This document shows positions 28,385 through 40,185 of a stretch of 64,000 nt of DNA, piece after piece. The translations under genes were made by a program, and so were the position numbers. The notes beneath the pieces were generated by a model. The model had not been told where the DNA came from. It saw only the letters and a program-made list of their open reading frames with translations, and did not search any database. The stretch comes from Streptomonospora litoralis (lineage in GTDB: Bacteria; Actinomycetota; Actinomycetes; Streptosporangiales; Streptosporangiaceae): the NCBI RefSeq assembly GCF_004323735.1, contig NZ_CP036455.1, positions 5,451,101 to 5,515,100 of the forward strand. The letters are read 5' to 3'. Positions within the stretch are counted from its first letter, which is position 1. The number at the start of each line of letters is the position of its first letter.

Positions 28385-29862
28385 GGGTCGGCGGATGGCC
28401 GGGCCCGCGCCCATCGGGTCGGGTGCTCGCCGGTGGCGGCGGGCGGCGGGGGCGGCGGGTCGGGACCGCTGGGCGGCCTTGTTGGTCTGCCGGGCGGTGG
28501 GTGGTCTTCACTGGAAAAGCGGCGCCGAGGGCGGTGGAGGGCCGGGCTCGTGCCCATCGGGTCGGGTGCCCGCCGGTGGCGGTGGTCGGCGGAGGGCGGC
28601 CCCGGTCTGCTGGGCGGCCTTGTTGGTCTGCCGGGGTGCGGGTGGTCTTGACTGAAAAGCGGAGCGGCGCCGAGGGCGGTGGAGGGCCGGGCTCGTGCCC
28701 ATCGGGTCGGGTGCCCGCCGGTGACGGCGGCCGACGAAGGGCGGCGAGGACGCCGGGGAGCCGGGAGGCGCTCGCGGGCCCGTTATGTCGCAGGGCGGCG
28801 CGGCGATCGTGCCCGTATGACGAGATCCAGCGGCGTTTCTTGGGAATTCGGCCACGATCGCCACGACCTCCGCGGCCGGCTCCGGCACGTCGGACATAGC
28901 GGGCGCGGGTGGACAGGCACCGCCGCCGTGTTCCGGCCGGGCCCGCACCGGCCGCAGGCCGCGCGGTGTGGCGCGGTTGCGGGTGCCCGCACGGCCCGGT
29001 GGTGCGCCGACTCGGGGGCCGGGGGCGACGACACGTCGCTCGTGGTGCCCGGGCGTCGCCGCCGGGAGCTCCACCGCCCGATGGGGTGGACTTTTGGGGG
29101 CCTATGCCCGTTTTGCGGGCGGCCTCGGCGGGCGCCGTGGTCACGAGACGCACGAAAAGTTGACCCCCGGGGCTGTTTTCGCGCCATTCGGTGCGCCTCG
29201 TGCGCCACCGCCGCGGCGGCGCGGCCGCGGACCCACCGGCAACTCGGGCATTGGTGGGCAAAACACCCCGTTTGTTTCCGTATCGCGGAATGGCGGTGCG
29301 CGGGTGGCGCCTCGGGGTGGCGCCGAGGCCGATACCGCCGCACATACGTGCATCTCGTGCCCCCGACCCGGCTCCATGACCGCCGCCGACCGCCCCGCGC
29401 CGGGGCCCGCCGACAACCGGGCGGCGACCCCCGGGGCTTGACCACCCGCCGCCGGGGCCGGTGACCGCCGCCCCGACCACGCCGTGCCCGGCCCCGCCAG
29501 AGTCGCCGCCACCGGCGGGCACCCGAACCGATGGGCACAGGCGCCACCACCCACCATCCTCGCCGCCCCGTCGCGCGCGCCACCGGCGAGCACCCGACCC
29601 GTCAACCGCAGGCCCAGCCATCCGCCACCGTCGCCGCCGCTTTTCAGTCAAGTCCACCCGTCGCCCGGCAGACCAACAAGGCCGCCCAGCGGACCCGACC
29701 CGCCCCGTCGCACGCGCCACCGGCGGGCACCCGGCCCGTTGGGCGCGGGCCCGGCCATCCGCCCTCCTCGCCGCCGCTTCTCAGTCAAGTCCACCCGTCG
29801 CCCGGTAGACCAACAAGGCCCCAACAAGGCCGCACAGCAGACCGGCGTTCTTGAACACGGCC
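28385..29862. repeat. Complex intergenic repeat locus 1
   Basis: About 1.5 kb without a convincing gene. The left arm (28385-28750) has about three direct units of 137-145 bp, each with CATCGGGTCGGGTGC near its middle; the first two carry the CTTGTTGGTCTGCCGG anchor (near 28479 and 28619). The right arm (29500-29862) has similar units in the opposite orientation (anchors near 29671 and 29808). Between them is a unique-looking core whose block 29321-29480 is conserved in inverted form at locus 2 (39369-39523). Every arm contains the word GGCCTTGTTGG or its complement. It is not CRISPR: units are long, imperfect and without spacers. Confidence 0.8.
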
Positions 29863-29903
29863 TAAGCCACCCCGGCCGCCCTGTGCCCGCGTCGGTGGTG
29901 TCC

Positions 29904-30476
29904 TCAGTGCACCCGCACCGCCAGGCCCTCGTAGTCGACCACCAGGCCGTCACGGTCCACCGTGAGCACGTAGGGCCCGTCCGGGCAGCCGCTGTACTCG
30001 TAGCGCTCCCGGCCGTCCGCCGCGCACATGCGGGTGTAACGCCGACTCGCCCGCTGCACGCGCAGGCTCGGCACATCGACGCGCACCACGGAAATGTCGC
30101 GGTACTCCCCCGTCCTCAGCCCGAGCCGGCGGATCGGCAGGGTGTTGGTCAGCGGAGTGGCGGCGACCTCCACGTCCAGACAGCCGTCCAGCTCGGGCAG
30201 GCGCAGGCCGCCGACCAGCCAGCCGCCGGCTTCCCGGTCCAGTGCGACCGCGCTCGACCCCGCGGCGGCGAGCACCTCCACCCGCGCCTGGATGCTGGCC
30301 CAGGCGAGATCGGCGCGGACGGTGGTGCGGCTGGAGAAGCGGCCGCGGGCGTCGGCGACCGTCTCGCTCGCCTCCAGGCGGACCCCGCCCGGCTCGGCGA
30401 GCAGGGCGCCCACCCCCAGTCCGGCCGAGACGTCGATCCGCGACCAGGCGATGGGATCCGCGGGCGAGGAGGACAT
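29904..30476 (-). CDS. Putative glycolipid-binding domain protein
   Basis: The 190-residue protein matches the bacterial putative glycolipid-binding family (beta-barrel): WSRIDVSAGLGVGALLAE, DLAWASIQARVEV, GGWLVGGLRLPELDGCLDVEVAATPLTNTLPIRRL (the diagnostic stretch), and RYTRM followed by a YEYSG pattern. It looks soluble. The family has a fold like lipoprotein-localisation barrels, but its role in actinobacteria is not settled. It stands just outside repeat locus 1. Confidence 0.85.
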   Translation of the reverse strand: MSSSPADPIAWSRIDVSAGLGVGALLAEPGGVRLEASETVADARGRFSSRTTVRADLAWASIQARVEVLAAAGSSAVALDREAGGWLVGGLRLPELDGCLDVEVAATPLTNTLPIRRLGLRTGEYRDISVVRVDVPSLRVQRASRRYTRMCAADGRERYEYSGCPDGPYVLTVDRDGLVVDYEGLAVRVH

Positions 30477-30780
30477 GGAACCGTTTTACCGGTACGTCCG
30501 GTTACACGCCAGAGGCTGCGTGTGATCATCGGGCGACCGCCGCGCGGTACACAGCCCGCCCGGCGCCGGGATCCGTGCACGCGGGCCGACGTCAGCACGG
30601 ACAAGTGCATCGAGGCCCCCGGGGCACGGCGGTTTCCCGTAGCCGGCTCGGGACTCTACAACGATTCACCCACACCGCCCGCAGCGGACGCAATGGACTC
30701 AGCGGACGCAGTGCTGAAGCGAAGGCGGCCGCACGCACCGTCCGGGCGCGTGCGGCCGCCTTCCGCGCGGCGCGGGCGGG
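30477..30780. other. Intergenic region with symporter terminator
   Basis: No gene is seen. Apart from the hairpin at 30721-30763, the stretch holds repeated GCAGCGGACGCA-like words around 30680-30710 and nothing else of note. Confidence 0.5.
30721..30763 (-). terminator. Terminator of the PutP-type gene
   Basis: GAAGGCGGCCGCACGC and its exact complement form a 16-bp stem with an 11-base loop, 18 bp beyond the symporter stop. Confidence 0.75.
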
Positions 30781-32334
30781 TCAGCGTTTCAGCACGCCCG
30801 GCGAACCGGTGAACTCGCGCTCCACGCGGTCGAAGTCGTCATGCATCTGCAGCGTCGCGCGGCCCGCGAACCGGAAGACGACGATGCCCAGCAGGCTGAC
30901 CGCGACCGCCGGCACCATCGCGTAGAGGCCGGTCTCCAACGGCCCGACGGCGATCGGGCCGAGGCTGATACCGGTGTTGTCCAGGATGTCCCAGAGGACG
31001 GCGGTCGCGCCGCCGCCGACCATGCCGGCGAGCGCGGCGGCCCGGTTCATGTTGCGCCAGTAGAGGGACAGCAGGATTACCGGGCCGAACCCAGCGCCGA
31101 AACCGGCCCAGGCGTAGCCGACCAGACCCATGATGGTGTTGTTGCCCGACAGCGCGATCCAGGCGGCCACCACCGCGATCGCGATGACGGCGCCGCGGCT
31201 GATCCACACCAGCGACGTCGCCGAGGCGTCGCGCTTGACGAACGCGCGGTAGCCGTCCTCGGTGATGGCGGAGGCGCCCACCAGCAGCTGGGAGTCCGCG
31301 GTGCTCATCACCGCGGCGAGGATCGCCGCCAGCAGCAGTCCGGCCACCCACGGGCTGAGCACCGCCTGGATCAGCTGGGCGAAGACCTGCTCGGGGTTGT
31401 CGAGGGGGGACTGGAAGTAGACGGCGCCGGTGAATCCGAGCACCACCGCCATGACCATCGCGGTGATGGCCCAGGTGACGCTGATGGCGCCGGCCTGCCG
31501 CACGTCGGTGGCCGAGCGGATGCCCATGAACCGGGCGAGGATGTGCGGCTGGCCGAGGTAGCCGATACCCCAGGCCAGGCCGGAGATGACGACCATCGGC
31601 GCGAGCGCGTCGCCCACGCTGCCCTCGACGCCGCCCAGGATGTCGGAGAGGCCGGCGGCGTTGCGGTCGGGGTCGGCGTTGATGGCGAGGATGCCCACGA
31701 CCGGAACGATGAGCAGCGCGATCCACATCATCGCGGCCTGCAGGACGTCGGTCAGGCTCACTGCGAGGAAGCCGCCGAGGAAGGTGTAGAGGACCACGAT
31801 GGAGACCCCGACGAGGATGGCGGCGGAGCTGGGCATGCCGAACACCTGGTTGAACAGCCCGCCCATGGCGACCAGACCGGAGGCCACGTAGAACAGGTAG
31901 AACAGCAGGATCAGCACCGCCGACACCAGGCGCAGCACGCCGCTGCGGTCGGCGAAGCGGTTCTCCAGGTAGGAGGAGAGCGTCAGCGAGTCGGAGTCGC
32001 CCCCGCTGCGGGCGTCGGTGACCCGCTCGGTGTAGACCCGCAGCCGCCCGGCGACCAGCCACCAGCTCGCCGCGAATCCGATGCCAAGGCCGACGGCGAT
32101 CCACGCTTCGCCCAGACCGGAGAGGTAGATCGCGCCGGGCAGGCCCAGCAGCAGCCACGCGCTGAAGTCACTGGCGTTGGCACTGAGCGCGGCCACCCAG
32201 CTGTTCAGCCTCCGGCCGCCCAGGACGAAGTCCGATAGCGACTTCGTGCGGTTGTATACGCCGATACCGATCGCGATCATGACGATGAAGTAAGCGGCGA
32301 AGGTGGCGATCGACGCCAGTGTCGACGTATCCAA
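30781..32334 (-). CDS. PutP-type sodium:solute (proline) symporter
   Basis: The 517-residue protein has about 13 membrane helices and the sodium/solute symporter signature: DFVLGGRRLNSWVAALSANASDFSAWLLLGLPGAIY near the start, GYLGQPHILARFMGI, and AAVMSTADSQLLVGASAITEDGYRAF. This is closest to PutP, which takes up proline with sodium. The start is a TTG at 32334 with AAAGGGGAG just before it and MDTSTLASIATF as the N terminus; the longer frame is non-coding. Three similar TGTCsGAT motifs lie upstream. It may serve proline use or osmoprotection. Confidence 0.93.
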   Translation of the reverse strand: MDTSTLASIATFAAYFIVMIAIGIGVYNRTKSLSDFVLGGRRLNSWVAALSANASDFSAWLLLGLPGAIYLSGLGEAWIAVGLGIGFAASWWLVAGRLRVYTERVTDARSGGDSDSLTLSSYLENRFADRSGVLRLVSAVLILLFYLFYVASGLVAMGGLFNQVFGMPSSAAILVGVSIVVLYTFLGGFLAVSLTDVLQAAMMWIALLIVPVVGILAINADPDRNAAGLSDILGGVEGSVGDALAPMVVISGLAWGIGYLGQPHILARFMGIRSATDVRQAGAISVTWAITAMVMAVVLGFTGAVYFQSPLDNPEQVFAQLIQAVLSPWVAGLLLAAILAAVMSTADSQLLVGASAITEDGYRAFVKRDASATSLVWISRGAVIAIAVVAAWIALSGNNTIMGLVGYAWAGFGAGFGPVILLSLYWRNMNRAAALAGMVGGGATAVLWDILDNTGISLGPIAVGPLETGLYAMVPAVAVSLLGIVVFRFAGRATLQMHDDFDRVEREFTGSPGVLKR

Positions 32335-32406
32335 TCGGCTCCCCTTTCCGAGCTGGTCGGTCGTCGTGCGATGCATGGATACTGACGCCCGCCCCAGCCC
32401 CGGGGC

Positions 32407-32518
32407 AATGTCCGATACACAAGTGAGGCCGCCTTCGATACCTCGCCGAGTTGTTCGGCCGCGACACTTGTCCGATCGCCGCACCCGGGTCACCGCTGCT
32501 TGTCGGATCGGACATAGT
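32407..32518. promoter_or_regulatory. Three repeated TGTCsGAT motifs upstream of the symporter
   Basis: TGTCCGATACACA (near 32409), TTGTCCGATCG (near 32467) and TTGTCGGATCGGACAT (near 32501) share a TGTCsGAT half-site. The last is a nearly perfect palindrome, TGTCsGATCsGACA. They lie 70-180 bp before the symporter start and about 200-310 bp before the HAD gene. A dedicated regulator is likely but not visible nearby. Confidence 0.5.
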
Positions 32519-32719
32519 CGAGCCCGGCACCGACCGAGGCGCCGCCCGGAAGCCCGGCGGACCGTCGAAGCTCCCGGCCACCCTGCCCTGCGGCCTGCTC
32601 ACCTGGTAAGCGACGACCGGCCCCACCGTTCGACCGGCGGCCGCGAAAGCGCCGGGACGCTCGCCGGGCGCAGGAAAATCCCGCGACGCCGCAGGGCCGC
32701 CGGTGGTAGGACCGGTGGC

Positions 32720-33370
32720 ATGAGCCTCCTACACGTCTTCGACATGGACGGCACCCTCATCAACGGCACCAGCGCGGCGGTGGAGATCGCCCGCACCTGC
32801 GGGACCGAGGCGGAACTACTGGATTTGGAGCGGGCGTTCAGCGTCGGCGAGATCGACACGAAGACGTTCTCCGCGACGCTGCACGCCCTGTGGACGGAGC
32901 TGACCGAGGAGCACATCGACCGGGCGTTCGCCGCGTGCCCCTTCCTGGAGGAGATCGCCGAGGTCTGCGCCGACATCCGCGCCCGCGGGGAGCTCTCGCT
33001 CGTCGTCACCATGTCCGCGGACTTCTTCGCCCGGCGGCTGCTCGACTTCGGCTTCGACGACGTCGTCGCCTCCCGGTTCCCCTCACTCCCCTTCCCGGCG
33101 CATTCGCTCGACCCCGCCGCCGTCCTGGTACCCGAGGACAAGGTGCGCATCGTCGAAGACGCCCGCGAGCACGCCGGCATCGCGCTGCGGAAGTGCGTGG
33201 CCTACGGCGACTCGATGTCGGACGCACCGCTGTTCCGCCACCTCGACCACAGCGTGGCGGTCAACGCCGACCACCACCTGGCCGGGATCGCACGGGCGGA
33301 GTACCGCGGCCCCAGCCTGATGGCGGCCTACGAGCGCGGCCGTGCGCTGCTCGCCGACGAGGCGGGGTGA
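32720..33370 (+). CDS. HAD-superfamily phosphatase (SerB-like, IB subfamily)
   Basis: The 216-residue protein carries the HAD motifs: FDMDGTL at residues 7-13 (nucleophile D8, acid D10), a threonine-containing motif II (VVTMSADF), a lysine before motif III (VPEDKVRIV), and GDSMSDAPLF. The helical cap between motifs I and II puts it in the phosphoserine-phosphatase-like group, though it lacks the full SerB pattern. ATG 32720 directly precedes the first motif strand. The substrate is unknown. Confidence 0.88.
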   Translation: MSLLHVFDMDGTLINGTSAAVEIARTCGTEAELLDLERAFSVGEIDTKTFSATLHALWTELTEEHIDRAFAACPFLEEIAEVCADIRARGELSLVVTMSADFFARRLLDFGFDDVVASRFPSLPFPAHSLDPAAVLVPEDKVRIVEDAREHAGIALRKCVAYGDSMSDAPLFRHLDHSVAVNADHHLAGIARAEYRGPSLMAAYERGRALLADEAG

Positions 33371-33433
33371 GCTGACCCGTTCCGGCGCCCGACGAGCAGC
33401 GCACCCGCTGTATCGGGCCTTACGGGCGGGGCG

Positions 33434-34024
33434 TCAGGGTCCGTTCGGGTGGCCGTGCTGGTTCCAGTCGTCGAGCAGGCGGTCGAACTCGTCCTCGCCC
33501 AGACCCAGATCCATGCGGATGCGGAATCGGGCGCGCAGTAGCTCCAGGAGCAGGTCGTGCACGTAGGGCGAGACGTCCTGGTGGCGGAAGCACTCGATGC
33601 CGAGGGTGGCCCAGGTGTGCGCGCCCCGCAGGTCGCCGTGGGCCTGGAGGGTCTCGGCGATGTGGATGAACGTCGGCAGGTTGCGCGGGCCCTCGGCGCG
33701 CAGGCGCTCCAGCCGGCCGTAGGCCGCGTCGATCAGATCCAGCTCCAGCAGGGCTCCGGCCTGCAGTGCGCGGGCGTCGACGATGGTGACGCCGCCGTCG
33801 TCGATGGCGCGCTGGTAGGCGGCCGACGCCCGCTCGAACTCCTGGGCCATCTCCCACTGCTCGCCGGCGCGTACGAAGATCTCCGCGCGAGAGATCTCGC
33901 TGTCGGCGTCGACGGCGTTGGCCAGGCCGAGGAGTTCCACGGCGACGGCGACATGGTCGCCGGACTGGACGGCACGGAATTCCAGCCGGTCGAGATCGGC
34001 CGTCGTCACGCGGGTCACTGCCAC
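33434..34024 (-). CDS. TPR-like helical repeat protein
   Basis: The 196-residue protein is all-helical with tetratricopeptide-like pairs (ISRAEIFVRAGEQWEMAQEFERASAAYQRAI, LLELDLIDAAYGRLERLRAEG, HIAETLQAHGDLRGAHTWATLGIECFRH). Such proteins scaffold other proteins. It lies 73 bp after the stop of the NYN-domain gene on the same strand, so they are probably co-transcribed. Similar proteins are conserved in actinobacteria without assigned function. Confidence 0.75.
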   Translation of the reverse strand: MAVTRVTTADLDRLEFRAVQSGDHVAVAVELLGLANAVDADSEISRAEIFVRAGEQWEMAQEFERASAAYQRAIDDGGVTIVDARALQAGALLELDLIDAAYGRLERLRAEGPRNLPTFIHIAETLQAHGDLRGAHTWATLGIECFRHQDVSPYVHDLLLELLRARFRIRMDLGLGEDEFDRLLDDWNQHGHPNGP

Positions 34025-34097
34025 CCTCCCTCACTCCCCAACATCGTCGCTCCGCGGTAGGCGCCTGCGCCCCTCTCCCTCCGGCCGCATGCTCCGC

Positions 34098-35870
34098 TCA
34101 CCCTCTGGCCGCGCGTTCCAACGCGCCCCAGAAACCCTGCCGCAGGGCCTCGCGGACCTCGTCGCGGAGCAGGTAGTCGATCGGCAGCGCCGACCCCTGT
34201 AGAAGGCGTGCCTCCAGGTCGGAGGGCATGCGCGGGCGGCGCACCAGAACCGCCTCCATCCACAGCGCGGGGGCGTCGCGGGCGATCGACTCGGCGAAAT
34301 CGTTCCCCTCTCGGCGCGCGACATGCACCGCGTCGTCGACGGTGCCCGCCGGCACTGCACCGGCGGCACCGTGAGGTCCCACGCTGGGGGTGGGATCTGT
34401 GTAGGGACCGTGCTGTAGGCGGTGTTCGGGCTGGGGGCCAGTACCAACGGCGGAACCTGACCGGCCTCCGCCGTGACTCCCGAAGGGGGAGTCATCTTCC
34501 GTACTGGCCCCAAAAGTAGGGTTTGGCCCGGTATTACCTCCGAACCCCGGGTTCTCGCCGGTATTCGTCCCGTACCGGGGGTCCGGTCCGGGAGGTGGCG
34601 TGTTCCGGGATGGTGGGTTCTCGCGCTCGTACTGGTGCCCGCCCGGCGCCGGGTGTCCGCCCGCGGGGTGGCCCTGTGCCGGATGGCCACCGGTGTGGTG
34701 CCCGGGCGCGGGGTACCCGCCGCTGGGGTGGCCCTGCGCCGGATAACCGCCACTCGGGGGACCCTGCGCCGGATAACCGCCACTCGGGGGACCCTGCGCG
34801 GGGTGGCCGCCGGTGTGGTGGCCCGGCTGGGGCTGCGGAGCCGCCTGGGGGCCCTGCTGCTGGCCGTAGGGGTTCTGCACACCGCGCATGCCCGGGTGCG
34901 GCCCGGTGTTGCCCGTCATGCCGTAGCCGGGCTCGGCCGGCGGCTGGGCTCCGGACATCCCGGTGTGGGCACCGGTGCCGCTGACGGGCGGAGGAGTCTG
35001 CCCGCCGGAGGGGAAGCCGTTGGCGTCGATGGGGCCGGACGGCGATCCGCGCTGCGGGTCGCCGCCGCCCTGCGGGGCCAGTGCGTCGCCGCCCCGCTGC
35101 TGGGCGATGCTCTGCTGCATCGCGCGCAACTGGTCCATCGCGCTGCCGCTCATCGCCGACTGCCCGCCGGTGTTGGCGAAGACCGGCTCGTAGCCGCCCG
35201 AGGGGGCGGCCGCCGGTTCGACGCGGCCCGGCGCGGGGTTGGCGGCAACCGGCCTTCGCGGCATCTCCGGCGCGCTGTGCGAGCGGCCGTTGCTCAACGG
35301 CGTGGTGGTCTCGACCGCGTCTTCGTCGCCCACCCCCGACAGCAGGGTGACATGCGGGCGCAGGTGGCCCGCCCCGATCTCGATCAGGTCGTCGCACTCG
35401 CGGCGCAGGGCCCGCGAGATGGTCCAGTTCCCCTCGACCGAGATGTGCACGACGGTCACGCGGACACCGAGGTCCTGGACGTCGGACACGACCTGAGCCA
35501 TGTCCTCGTCGCCGCTGACGAGCACCGCCTCGCAGAGCACGCCAGTGCGCGCCAGGGTGGTCAGGTCCCGCTGGACATAACTCTCGACACCCTCCCGTCT
35601 GCCGGGACGAATGCGCGCGGCTCTGAACTTGATGCCGGGAATGTCCGCGATTCCGTCCTGCTCCTGGGTGCGGCGGCCGTCGGAGGTCGCCTCGTACCAG
35701 TAGCAGCGCAACAGCGGGAGTCGTGTGCGGTCACGCGCCACTTCGTTGAGGAGTTGCACGAGACCGGCGTAGTCCCATGACACGGAATCGCGGTTGCGGG
35801 TTCCGTGCACTGCCATCGCACCGTCGGCGAGGAGGTAGCCGGCGTCTACGAATAGCGCGCAGCGATCCAC
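34098..35870 (-). CDS. NYN-domain protein with Gly/Pro/His repeat tail
   Basis: The 590-residue protein has an N-terminal NYN/PIN-like nuclease domain (about 1-160): CALFVDAGYLLADG, then AVLVSGDEDMAQVVSDVQDLGVRVTVV with the acidic residues expected to bind metal. A long low-complexity region follows, including near-perfect tandem units of the type GHHTGGHPAQGPPSGGYPA (residues about 345-420), then N/G/P-rich stretches, and a conserved helical C terminus (PSDLEARLLQGSALPIDYLLRDEVREALRQGFWGAL). The NYN family contains RNA nucleases. GTG 35870 follows GGGGCGG. It is followed by the TPR-like gene. Confidence 0.85.
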   Translation of the reverse strand: MDRCALFVDAGYLLADGAMAVHGTRNRDSVSWDYAGLVQLLNEVARDRTRLPLLRCYWYEATSDGRRTQEQDGIADIPGIKFRAARIRPGRREGVESYVQRDLTTLARTGVLCEAVLVSGDEDMAQVVSDVQDLGVRVTVVHISVEGNWTISRALRRECDDLIEIGAGHLRPHVTLLSGVGDEDAVETTTPLSNGRSHSAPEMPRRPVAANPAPGRVEPAAAPSGGYEPVFANTGGQSAMSGSAMDQLRAMQQSIAQQRGGDALAPQGGGDPQRGSPSGPIDANGFPSGGQTPPPVSGTGAHTGMSGAQPPAEPGYGMTGNTGPHPGMRGVQNPYGQQQGPQAAPQPQPGHHTGGHPAQGPPSGGYPAQGPPSGGYPAQGHPSGGYPAPGHHTGGHPAQGHPAGGHPAPGGHQYERENPPSRNTPPPGPDPRYGTNTGENPGFGGNTGPNPTFGASTEDDSPFGSHGGGRSGSAVGTGPQPEHRLQHGPYTDPTPSVGPHGAAGAVPAGTVDDAVHVARREGNDFAESIARDAPALWMEAVLVRRPRMPSDLEARLLQGSALPIDYLLRDEVREALRQGFWGALERAARG

Positions 35871-37720
35871 GCGACACCGCCCCTTCCCGTTGGTTCGTAG
35901 CCCGGGGCGAGAATCACGCACCGGGTCCTGCCGGTGTTCGGCACTGGGCCTGTAGACAGGACGCGCCACAGCCTAACCAAGTCTGCCGGGGTTTGTATGC
36001 CGCCTCGCCACCCGCGGTCGCTCGGCGAATACGAATCGCGCCAGGCCACAAGCGCTGCGCCGAACCGCCGGGCGGGCCCCGGCAGGGCCGCGGAGGGACG
36101 CGCAGACGCGGCGTGTGCGCGGCGGCCGCGGGCTCGGACCGGGCCGCCCGCGGACGAACGGATACGGCGGCGCCGGCGGCCGCGGGAGGGCGGCGCGGAA
36201 CCCGGCCGCGAGCGGACTTCCGCGGCCGCGGCGCCGCCGCCGGGCGCATCAGTCGCTAGCTCGGGCGTCGGTTGCGGGGACGCGCCGGCGCCCCCGGCCT
36301 CGCTCGGGAGGGGCACCGACACCCCGCCGGCGCCGACCTGAACGTCTGCGCCCGGTCCCCGCACCGAGACGCCGCCGTGGCCGACCTGGACACCACCGTC
36401 CGCGTCCCGCACCGACACCCCGCCGGCGCCGACCCGGACGTCTGTGCTCGGTCCCCGCACCGACACGCCTTGCGGACCGACGCTGATCTCCACCTCGGGT
36501 TCGGGCCGCGGTTCAGGCGGCGGTTCAGTGGGCGGCTCCGGAGGGCGGGGCGACGGCGGTGGCTCAGACGGCGAGGCCGACTGCCGCTCGGGCGGCGGGG
36601 GTGCCTCGGGTGCGGGCTCGTCTGAGCGCGGCTCCGGCTCCGGGGCCGGTGCTGATGCCGCCCGTTCGACGGCAGGCGGAGCGGCGGGAGCGGGCGGTTC
36701 CGGCTCGGAGGGCGGCTGTTCGGGGGCGGCGGGAGGAGGGGGCTGGGCGGGCTGGGCGGCAGCCGCCGGAGGCGCCTCCGGCCGCGGCGGTGCCGGTGTC
36801 TCGTTGCTCACCAGCGCGAACGCGACGGCCGCCGCGACCGCCGCAGCCGCGGTGCCGCCCGCCGCGGCCTGCTGGCCGCGCTTGGGCAGCCGCTGCCACC
36901 AGCCGCCGATGCCGAACGGCACGGCCCCGGCCGCTGCGAGGTAGGCCGCCGCGGCCGGACCCGCGACCAGCGGGAGCACGATCCCGCGCAGCCCGGCGTT
37001 GACGTCCGTCAGCTCGGCGCAGACCTCGCGGCAGTCGCCGCACTGGTCGAGGTGGCGGTCGACGGCCGCGGTGTCGCGCTTGGCCAGACCGCCGCGGATG
37101 TAGGCGCCGAGCCTGCTCACAGCCGGACGGCAGGACTCCGCCGCGCCGTCGGCCAGGTGCATCTGCAGATACGCCTGGCGAAGTCCCTCGCGAGCCCGGT
37201 AGGCCAGCGCCGCCACGCTGTTGGGATTCATCCCCAGGCCGGGCGCCGCCTCGGCGGGCTTGGCCCCTTCGATCTCGGTGTACCAGAGCACCGCCTGCCA
37301 GCGCTCGGGCAGAGAGAGGTAGGCGCGCGCGATGAGCGAGCGCTCCAGGCCGGCCAAGGCCGGGTCGACGAAGGGTTCGCCGGAGTCGAAACTCTCCATG
37401 TCGTCGGTGACGACCTGACGCTTCTCGCCGCGGTACCGGTCGTAGACGACGTGGCGCAGCGCGGTCAGCAGATAGGGACGGAAACCGTCCACGGGACCGC
37501 CGCCGCGGCCTAGCACCCCGAGCACGCGCGCGAACGTCTCGGCGACGGCGTCGTCCACCTCGCTCTCGCTGCGGACCAGCTGGCGGGCCAGCCCGCGGGC
37601 CGAGCCGGCGTGGCGGGTGTAGAGCTCGGCGAATGCTCCGCTGTCGCCTTCGCGGACCCGCGCGAGCAGCTCGTTGTCACCGACGAGTCGCTCTTCGTAG
37701 TCGACATGGGGTTCGGTCAT
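35846..37720 (-). CDS. ECF sigma factor fused to zinc-binding anti-sigma and membrane segments
   Basis: In order: sigma region 2 (about 20-90), region 4 (about 130-185), a zf-HC2-type anti-sigma motif H213-LDQC217-GDC220, two hydrophobic segments (235-260, 273-294), a Pro/Glu-rich linker, and a repeat domain (about 415-480) with four VSVRG/VRVGAGG-type units that probably folds as beta structure outside the cell. A sigma factor with its own ZAS domain and membrane anchor is known in the ECF52/53-like groups. Beyond about 36250 the frame looks non-coding (rare CTA codon, Arg-rich) and finally overlaps the NYN gene start. The true C terminus may therefore lie near 36250, with a frameshift or assembly error. 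Confidence 0.75.
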   Translation of the reverse strand: MTEPHVDYEERLVGDNELLARVREGDSGAFAELYTRHAGSARGLARQLVRSESEVDDAVAETFARVLGVLGRGGGPVDGFRPYLLTALRHVVYDRYRGEKRQVVTDDMESFDSGEPFVDPALAGLERSLIARAYLSLPERWQAVLWYTEIEGAKPAEAAPGLGMNPNSVAALAYRAREGLRQAYLQMHLADGAAESCRPAVSRLGAYIRGGLAKRDTAAVDRHLDQCGDCREVCAELTDVNAGLRGIVLPLVAGPAAAAYLAAAGAVPFGIGGWWQRLPKRGQQAAAGGTAAAAVAAAVAFALVSNETPAPPRPEAPPAAAAQPAQPPPPAAPEQPPSEPEPPAPAAPPAVERAASAPAPEPEPRSDEPAPEAPPPPERQSASPSEPPPSPRPPEPPTEPPPEPRPEPEVEISVGPQGVSVRGPSTDVRVGAGGVSVRDADGGVQVGHGGVSVRGPGADVQVGAGGVSVPLPSEAGGAGASPQPTPELATDAPGGGAAAAEVRSRPGSAPPSRGRRRRRIRSSAGGPVRARGRRAHAASARPSAALPGPARRFGAALVAWRDSYSPSDRGWRGGIQTPADLVRLWRVLSTGPVPNTGRTRCVILAPGYEPTGRGGVAWIAARYS

Positions 37721-37964
37721 GCGCCGCCTTTCCGATGGGGCGAGTACGCCTGCGTGCCGGGGCCTACTGCGTGACGGGGGCCGCGGCCGGTTCGGTGTCC
37801 CCGCAGCCGGTGCCGCTCGGCGGCCGGATCGTGCCGCAGCAGGGGCGGGACACCGCCCGCAGAAAAATGTTCCCGTACTCGCGTCATGACCGCCACCGGA
37901 GTCCGTGAATAAGGGTGGAGGCGCCGCGGCGCCGGACACCGCCGACGACGGGAGCCGAGTGGAC

Positions 37965-38729
37965 ATGTGGGGACGCGACACCGGCGGCTCCGAGCTCGCA
38001 GACAGCGTTGCTGCGCAACGCCGGCTGCGGGAGACGTGGGGCCGACGCAGCCGCGGGCGGCGCGGCGGGCTGCAGGAGGACTGGTGGAGTCCGGCGGTCG
38101 ACGCCGTGTGCACCGCTGCCGTGCGCGGAAGCGGCCTGGCCGAGGCGTGTGGGCGGCTCGGCCAGGCGCGGGCCCGCGCCGGCATGCCCGTCGGCGAGGC
38201 GCTGGACGACCTCGCGGCGCTGTGCGACGCGCTGGGCCGCCCGCAGCCTCCGATCGAACTGGTGACGGCTTTGGCCGAAGGGTGGGTTGACGGCGGCCGC
38301 TGCCGCGAGGACTGCCGCGACCCGCTGACCGGCCTGACCACGGCGGCCTACCTGCGCACCCGGCTCACCGAGCTGTACCGCGGCGGCGGTCCGGGCGGCC
38401 CGCACGGTGGCGCGCTCGGCCATCGGTTCGTCGTCGTCGCGCTGCCCGCGGGCCTGGACCCGTGGCGGCGCACCGCCCGGCTCATCGTCCTCGGCCACGA
38501 GCTGGGCCGGTTCTTCTCCCGCGGCGAGACACTGGCGCTGCTGAGCCGCAGCCGACTGGCAGTGCTGGCGCCCGCCGCCACGAATCTGCAGGAGCGGCTG
38601 CGGCGGCTGGAGGACGACGTGTGCGCCGAACACGGCGCCTGCGTGCGGAGCCGGGCGCTGCCGTCGAGCTGCGCCGAGGCGCTGGCCCTTATCGACGACC
38701 CGGGGAGGGCGCCGATGTCCGGCGAGTAG
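37965..38729 (+). CDS. Degenerate GGDEF-like protein divergent from the fused sigma factor
   Basis: The 254-residue protein contains DPLTGLTTAAYLRTRLTELYR, which is how GGDEF domains begin, then strands (HRFVVVALPAG, RSRLAVLAPAA) arranged as in a cyclase fold. The GGDEF signature itself is absent, so diguanylate cyclase activity is not expected. The N-terminal ~100 residues are helical. ATG 37965 follows GGGAG; an in-frame GTG at 37905 behind GGAG is an alternative. It is divergent from the membrane-linked sigma factor, suggesting a shared regulatory role. Confidence 0.65.
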   Translation: MWGRDTGGSELADSVAAQRRLRETWGRRSRGRRGGLQEDWWSPAVDAVCTAAVRGSGLAEACGRLGQARARAGMPVGEALDDLAALCDALGRPQPPIELVTALAEGWVDGGRCREDCRDPLTGLTTAAYLRTRLTELYRGGGPGGPHGGALGHRFVVVALPAGLDPWRRTARLIVLGHELGRFFSRGETLALLSRSRLAVLAPAATNLQERLRRLEDDVCAEHGACVRSRALPSSCAEALALIDDPGRAPMSGE

Positions 38730-39059
38730 AGGCTTTGCGACGCCGCCCGCACCGTGGCGCCCAGCAGAGGGGGCTGGGCCCGGTGCAGGCGGCTCGCCGG
38801 TCGGCGGAGCCCGTTGAGGGGCGGGCGCGCTCGACCGGCCGCCGGAGCCCTGCTCCGGCGCAACCACCGGCCAGGCGCGGCCTTCTGGCCCCGAGTGGGC
38901 GGCCGCAGGCACCGGCCGGTGGCACGGGCGCTACGGCGCCCCGGGAGGCGCGTCCGCATGGGGAGGCGGGCGCGCCTCCGCCTTCTCATGAGGCGCCGCG
39001 ACTGCTCCGGAACGCGCATCAGGCGGGGGATGCAGCGGGGGAGGCATCCGGACGGCTCG

Positions 39060-40185
39060 GGTCCGCTGAGCGGCCTTGTTGGTCTACCGGGTAACGGGCG
39101 ACCGCACGAGGAACGGCGGCGGCGACGGCGGCGGATGGCCGGGCCCGCGCCCACCGGACCGGGTGCCCGCCGGTGGCGGCGGCCGACGAGGGGCGGCGAG
39201 GACAGCGAAGGGCTGGGCCCGTGCCCAACAGGCCGGGTGCCCGCCGGTGACGGCAGTCGGCGAGGCGGCGAGGGCACCGCGGGGATGGCGCCTGCGCCCA
39301 ACGGGCCGGGTGCTCGCCGGTGACGGCGGCCGGCGGGGCAGCGGCGCCGGCGGGGCCGGGCCTGCGGTGGTCGGGGCGGCGGTCACCGGCCCCGGCCGCG
39401 GGTAGTCAAGCCCCGAGGGCCGCCCGATTGTCGACGCCGGGCGGTCGGCGGCGGTCATGGAGCCGGGTCGCGGCCACGAGATGCACGCATGTGCGACGGT
39501 ATCCGCCTCGGCGTCGCCACCGCGCCGTGCGAGCACCCGCAACCGCGCCCCGCCGTGCGGCCTCTGCCGGTTCGGGCCGGGTCGGACCACGGCGACACCC
39601 AGCCGGCGAACCGGCGCCGGTATGTCCGGTATGCCGGTTCATCCGGCGATGATCGTGAACTTATGGCCGCGGAATGCGCTTTCCGGCGACCATAAGTTCA
39701 CGATAGACAGACTCGGCGGGACCGGTGCCGCCCAACGCAGGGTTTTAACCAGACAGCGGCCCCGGAGTTTGGCAAAAACCACGTGTTCGATGCACCGACC
39801 GGCCTGCGGCGGCCGAAGGCCGCCCTCCGCCGCCCCCGTCGCGCGCGCCACCCGCGGGCACCCGAACCGACAACCACAGGCCCGACCCACCGCCGACCTC
39901 GCCGCCGCTTTTCCCGAAGACCACCCGCACCCCGGCAGACCAACAAGGCCGCCCAGCCAACCCGAGCCGCCGCCACCGGCGAGCACCTGACCCGATCACC
40001 GCAGGCCCCGCCCACCGCCGACCTCGCCGCCGCTTTTCCCGAAGACCACCCCCACCACGGCAGCCCAACAAGGCCGCCCAGCAAACCCGAGCCGCCGCCC
40101 CCGCCGCAACCGCCACCGGCGAGCACCCGAACCGATGGGCACGGGGCACGGGCCCATCCATCCGCCCTCGTCGCCACCCCCGCCC
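39060..40185. repeat. Complex intergenic repeat locus 2
   Basis: This is the counterpart of locus 1, in the opposite chromosomal orientation. The left arm (39060-39330) has units with GGCCTTGTTGGTCTACCGG and CGGGTGCCCGCCGGTG repeated at about 75-80 bp. The block 39369-39523 matches 29321-29480 of locus 1 in inverted form. A 15-bp perfect hairpin stem lies at 39652-39704. The right arm (about 39830-40185) has units in inverted orientation with CAACAAGGCCGCCCAGC (near 39940 and 40066). No convincing gene exists between 38730 and 40269. Compared with locus 1 the core lacks about 300-400 bp. Confidence 0.8.
39652..39704. repeat. Long hairpin inside repeat locus 2
   Basis: ATCGTGAACTTATGG (39652-39666) pairs exactly with CCATAAGTTCACGAT (39690-39704), with a 23-base centre that contains a further short GGAA/TTCC pairing. 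The stem is AT-richer than its surroundings. It has no counterpart in locus 1, so it may be a small insertion or the core of a structured RNA/DNA element. Confidence 0.65.

Follow-up and report, generated by a model that had tools for sequence, protein, structure and literature searches.

Two inverted loci in Streptomonospora litoralis as probable members of a modular, non-coding interspersed repeat family

Two related loci and their parts

The window analyzed here is a 64,000-nucleotide stretch of the Streptomonospora litoralis chromosome (contig NZ_CP036455.1, positions 5,451,101 to 5,515,100), and it contains two complex repeat loci: locus 1 or element 1, at 28–30 kb, and locus 2 or element 2, at 39–40 kb. 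The initial annotation had described them as related loci with GC-rich arms and a shared core, and this was confirmed. A repeat search of the window gave inverted matches between 29405–29510 and 39337–39442 (81% identity) and between 29316–29402 and 39432–39518 (90%), as well as numerous matches between arm units. Profile hidden Markov models (HMMs) placed copies of the core at 29319–29503 (+) and 39346–39515 (−), with E values of 1e-36 to 1e-40. This likeness is far above chance; for the core of locus 1, no fewer than 40 copies were detected in the S. litoralis genome (40 being the candidates scored) at 75–100% identity and E ≤ 1e-31. Both loci probably belong to an interspersed repeat family that is modular, non-coding and present in high copy number, of the general kind of repetitive extragenic palindromes and bacterial interspersed mosaic elements (REP/BIME), BOX elements and mycobacterial interspersed repetitive units (MIRU).

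The arms are built from a 133-nt unit comprising module A (approximately positions 1–73) and module B (approximately 60/73–133, with GGCCTTGTTGG). In element 1 the left arm (U+, 28387–28745, plus strand) has the units A-B, A-B and A, matched by the nhmmer arm-unit model at 28387–28517, 28526–28659 and 28671–28745 (E 1e-9 to 1e-27). It is followed by a non-coding center (28746–29318, +), and the inner-region model runs uninterrupted, end to end, over 28671–29562 (E 4e-219). Within this center lies motif M (29229–29308, +; GGGCATT..GGGCAAAACACCCCG..TTCCGTATCGCGGAA; M model E 5e-23), followed by the core block C in plus orientation (29319–29503; E 5e-39), which includes GCACATACGTGCATCTCGTG. The right arm (U−, 29502–29847, minus strand) reads A, A, A-B, B, with matches at 29502–29562, 29562–29633, 29640–29770 and 29777–29847. 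The hairpin H, whose usual site is near the left end of the center, was unrecognizable there or elsewhere in element 1 (no match of the H model in the locus).

Element 2 begins with a left arm (U+, 39050–39340, +) of units B, A, A and A, matched at 39050–39113, 39123–39196, 39197–39270 and 39272–39340. Its core block has minus orientation (39346–39515; E 6e-36), and its center (39516–39824, −) is shortened, as the inner model matches only with its positions 1–375 and 688–952, so that positions 376–687, motif M included, are missing. Hairpin H is present at 39646–39705 as a near-perfect palindrome, ATCGTGAACTTATGG(n23)CCATAAGTTCACGAT, bordered on one side by a CGTC/TGTC-like sequence (H model E 1.5e-19). 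The right arm (U−, 39825–40173, −) reads A, A-B, A-B (39825–39901, 39909–40026 and 40034–40173).

The two loci had been proposed to be colinear once one is inverted. This held for the core, which is opposite in orientation, but not throughout: locus 2 is without approximately 310 nt of center, and carries an intact H, for which the models gave no match in locus 1. It is only by core orientation that the loci are inverted relative to each other, since each is itself arranged as arm (+), core, arm (−). None of six open reading frames (ORFs) tested from elements 1 and 2 had a Pfam match, in agreement with the earlier observation of no transposase, integrase or CRISPR at these loci, and Rfam gave no match within the window except one tRNA.

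A dispersed family of inward-facing arms

Arm units and cores were then counted, using iterated nhmmer models, in 2.8 Mb of S. litoralis DNA read in six segments (49% of the 5.72-Mb chromosome). The 405 arm units and 56 cores detected fell into 107 intergenic gaps, each counted as one element, which extrapolates to approximately 220 elements on the chromosome. Density was 12–19 elements per 400 kb, with 34 in one 800-kb segment. Two-armed elements had a median length of 1.1 kb, and all elements together made up approximately 2.7% of the DNA read. In every two-armed element the U+ arm stood on the left and the U− arm on the right (61/61, no violations); the other gaps held solo arms (46/107). 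The innermost arm unit mostly ended with module A, whilst outer ends were variable, with unit starts spread over the model positions. Cores showed no such polarity, with 28 in plus and 26 in minus orientation and one element containing both.

H is a near-perfect palindrome of approximately 54 nt, ATCG[T/C]GAACTTATGG..CCATAAGTTC[A/G]CGAT, with a stem of approximately 24 bp. It occurred at 61 places, 58 of them at elements (58/107 elements). CGTC or TGTC flanked the stem in most copies shown, although tags this short often arise by chance where GC content is high.

The elements are non-coding. All but two of the 461 arm and core matches lay outside called genes, and across 41 aligned centers the variation was independent of codon position, with indels mostly of a single nucleotide. 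A coding region was ruled out by this lack of codon periodicity and by the single-nucleotide indels, together with the lack of Pfam matches. Their placement among genes was also non-random. Convergent genes bounded 43 of the 107 gaps with elements, but just 185 of the 1247 remaining gaps above 100 nt (odds ratio 3.9, p = 2.6e-9 by Fisher test), and divergent gaps were depleted (p = 2e-4). The median distance from an element to a gene 3′ end was 55 nt, versus 275 nt to a 5′ end.

We looked for relatives of these modules in other genomes of the Nocardiopsaceae. Absence of the core from the rest of the family had been put forward as evidence against a genuine repeat; the core is indeed undetected in the other family genomes sampled, where only background-level matches were seen, but it is abundant in its own genome. 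Among 71 family genomes the center model R2 matched strongly only in S. litoralis, with nothing convincing in five congeners. The arm model R3, by comparison, gave 159 matches in one congener (G005), and one weak match each in two others (G001 and G004). In G005, the 150 arm matches listed out of these 159 form 36 clusters, and the 24 two-armed clusters, with centers of 783–1668 nt, all have U+ followed by U− (24/24). On sequence comparison, the layout is thus kept in G005 though the arms have diverged and the center is nearly unrecognizable.

One whole G005 element (locus L046) was read through. It has A-type arms, a strong hairpin of its own with another sequence, and motif M, which corresponds to the match of the inner model at 2034–2099 (E 4e-4) and is the one stretch of the center for which conservation between S. 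litoralis and G005 is clear. The exact motif M pattern was found in S. litoralis (G000; 3 occurrences) and G005 (2 occurrences) only, among 343 family genomes. The center of this G005 element contains two inverted repeats where S. litoralis elements have H: a strong one of its own at 1698–1763, CGCGTCGAGGGTGTCG..CGACACCCTCGACGCG, and another at 1951–2000 around GCGTTTGGA..TCCAAACGC. The gene neighboring this element has an orthologue in S. litoralis at 4.996 Mb (89% identical), and among the S. litoralis arm matches listed none adjoins the 3′ end of that orthologue. For H there was no convincing match in G005; a search of G001 returned 22 rows, several being both strands of one palindrome, and matches in G004 were weak. 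With arms in G005 and H in G001, the modules are separable.

Turnover, origin and competing explanations

Arm units within the same arm were on average 0.838 identical, whereas units from opposite arms of one element were 0.730 identical, the same value as for units of unrelated elements (0.730; permutation 0.730 ± 0.0085). These values point to tandem exchange within arms, and indicate that complementarity between the two arms is not maintained. Since the likeness of opposite arms does not exceed that of units taken at random, the layout does not owe its preservation to pairing between arms, and the idea of arms held complementary as one long hairpin was ruled out. The mirrored modular design is unusually strict and is older than its sequence, its polarity having been kept in two species while arms and center diverged.

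In the center the mean pair identity was 0.82. Five pairs of centers exceeded 0.97 (97–99.6%); all are separated by 21–93 kb and four are inverted, and these pairs involve five elements in two regions. Near-identical inverted pairs, those from a direct comparison included, lie at 4.76/4.78 Mb, 4.50/4.54 Mb and 0.61/0.65/0.70 Mb. The identity tracts mostly begin or end inside the elements, as would be expected if neighbors underwent gene conversion or recombination, and local duplication is also possible. Such near-identical and mostly inverted neighbors make recombination among family members plausible, whilst inversion was shown for none. There was no overall correlation between identity and distance (Spearman 0.03), with only a few close pairs standing out; one misaligned element (S5_146335) lowers the mean identity of the nearer distance classes. 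Identity between the two window loci does not depart from the family average (83% in the core search, against a family mean of approximately 82% in the center), and so gives no sign of recent exchange.

Our preferred reading, that the two loci belong to an interspersed repeat family, would have this family arise by a mobile or recombinational route and be copied around the genome in the S. litoralis lineage. It would be non-autonomous, as no coding capacity was found, with the arm polarity inherited from a founder element. Present-day change would come mainly from arms gaining or losing tandem units, and from exchange between nearby elements. Copies lying downstream of genes would be tolerated, and H in these positions probably serves as a two-way transcript 3′-end or terminator hairpin; actinomycete 3′ ends often have hairpins without a U-tract, which can be bidirectional, as described in Streptomyces clavuligerus (PMC8269248). 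The first 1.6 Mb suggested that solo arms downstream of a gene are invariably in sense orientation, a pattern that did not hold at 2.8 Mb.

Several observations weigh against this reading. No mobility mechanism was found, and outer ends vary (target-site duplications were not looked for). The one full-length Y1 transposase is without H or arm sequence within approximately 1.5 kb. The gene calls, on which the placement data depend, came from a codon-usage caller written for this analysis, and the 3′-end bias could stem from promoter avoidance and not from function; such avoidance by itself could account for part of the pattern. Solo arms in co-directional gaps showed no sense preference over the full 2.8 Mb (11 sense, 8 antisense).

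Candidate sources of the elements were also sought. Three Y1_Tnp matches were found in the genome, the full-length one beside a TnpB-like ORF, at loci without H or significant arm sequence, and no Y1/RAYT transposase bearing H was found. One of these loci, at approximately 2.618 Mb (L196; G000:C1), is IS605-like, with a Y1-type TnpA adjoining a TnpB-like ORF pair, and has neither H nor significant arm sequence. A plasmid origin of element 1 and a phage origin of element 2 found no match in the one plasmid collection and the one phage collection searched.

The invariant layout can also be explained by function. The elements could be chromosomal sites in which selection for protein binding maintains the inward polarity, motif M and H, for example in chromosome organization, arrest of converging transcription or DNA repair. 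We consider this unlikely, although the layout is invariant in all two-armed elements of two species (61/61 and 24/24) despite diverged arms and a mostly unrecognizable center, motif M with its palindrome TTCCGnATCnCGGAA is common to both species when the remaining center is not, and opposite arms are not co-homogenized, so that arm-arm pairing fails to explain the polarity. On the other side, the four remaining congeners lack the family by both arm and center models, so that it is not essential, its density varies modestly, at the 12–19 per 400 kb given above, no binding protein is known, and a founder could account for the fixed polarity. A bolder form of this idea, to which we give an equally low chance, would make the elements a new class of bipolar chromosomal site: inward tandem arrays would flank a putative protein-binding center at gene 3′ ends, acting on converging transcription or chromosome structure, with the layout selected across species while the sequence turns over.

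A classical non-autonomous DNA transposon, that is a foldback element or miniature inverted-repeat transposable element (MITE) with long inverted terminal repeats built of subrepeats and a transposase acting in trans, would account for inverted multi-unit arms around a non-coding center, for high copy number and for lineage-restricted expansion. We rate it as distinctly unlikely, given that the spread of unit starts leaves the outer ends without a fixed terminus, that solo arms are common (46/107), and that no transposase with the same ends was found in a search covering the Y1 family only.

Hairpin H also raised the question of a structured non-coding RNA family. H itself is a strong palindrome with little covariation, and some windows of the center were more stable than column-shuffled alignments (z −3.4 and −3.6). 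However, compensatory changes in the center showed no excess over column-shuffled alignments, arm units showed no such excess either and folded no better than shuffled sequences, and Rfam recognized only the tRNA in the window. Covarying RNA structure is thus unsupported for arms and center by the shuffled-alignment comparisons, and an RNA family is very improbable.

An invertible 11-kb genetic switch bounded by the two window loci, as implied by the proposal that they form a flanking pair, can be put aside almost entirely: the cores are opposite in orientation and the longest exact inverted match, 41 nt (28609–28649 versus 39917–39957), makes inversion by homologous recombination physically possible, but the two sites are 2 of 107 elements in half the chromosome (approximately 220 in all) at family-average identity (approximately 83%), with core orientation near 50:50, very many element pairs stand in the same relation, and no recombinase family was found in element ORFs (a scan that took in only part of the genes in the 11-kb segment). 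A flanking pair or inversion device is thus unsupported, and the genome-wide family rules out a special inverted pair. Two tandem repeats of another kind were seen inside genes of the window: 30-nt units at 34642–34862, in a predicted NYN-domain gene, give a glycine/proline-rich low-complexity stretch, and 48-nt units at 36313–36469, in a predicted sigma-factor fusion gene, encode a repeated GVSVRGP..V.VGAGGVSVR segment.

Elements separated by a few tens of kb, which are often in inverted orientation and in some cases near-identical, are natural substrates for chromosome rearrangement. The family also offers a direct way into the question of whether intergenic repeats in bacteria are tolerated parasites only, or are kept for function.

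Comparison with known repeat systems

Literature on comparable families yielded general papers on REPs, stem-loops and typing, none of which describes the S. litoralis family; as subscription journals were mostly outside the search, this is weak evidence of novelty. The nearest likeness is to REP/BIME sequences. The S. litoralis family is similarly high-copy, dispersed and intergenic, with a palindromic unit (H) and inverted arrangements, and the CGTC/TGTC-like sequence beside most H copies shown may or may not correspond to the REP tag. Its preference for the 3′ side of genes and for convergent ORFs is also REP-like, as REPs are reported mainly between convergent and co-directional ORFs, close to 3′ ends (PMC3733652). 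REP superfamilies are GTAG- or CGTC-tagged, and CGTC REPs have a stem of 8–9 bp, a loop of 4–5 nt and no dedicated transposase (PMC3733652). With its stem of approximately 24 bp H is too long for membership in that class, and in contrast to the GTAG class no RAYT was found adjoining it. The S. litoralis elements further differ in reaching 2 kb, in their tandem 133-nt arms and large center, and in that H is absent or unrecognized at about half of them.

A survey of stem-loop families in 40 bacterial genomes, whose text does not mention Streptomyces, reported intergenic non-coding repeats, some novel and some longer than 2,000 bp (PMC2267715). The S. litoralis family resembles these by description, being intergenic and non-coding.

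A closer match to H itself came from a scan of 84,980 species for GAACTTATGG(n20-26)CCATAAGTTC, in a collection that may omit records close to the S. litoralis genome. It returned 19 stretches, all in Catellatospora and all with spacing identical to that of H (n23), and viral contigs gave no match. The hairpin dispersed over the 19 Catellatospora loci (L199–L217), TTGATCATGAACTTATGG..CCATAAGTTCATGATCAA, shares its 43-nt core spacing with H and often stands just past apparent stop codons. These loci differ in having no arm units and in belonging to another order of bacteria, and the likeness may reflect common origin or convergence.

Foldback elements and MITEs share with the S. litoralis family inverted arms of subrepeats around a non-coding center, but the latter has no fixed termini, and its two arms are not co-homogenized. 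BOX elements of Streptococcus and MIRU of mycobacteria are modular, intergenic repeats of tandem units in variable copy number. Compared by description, the S. litoralis family has all of these properties, and differs in that its arms stand on both sides of a center, with fixed inward polarity.

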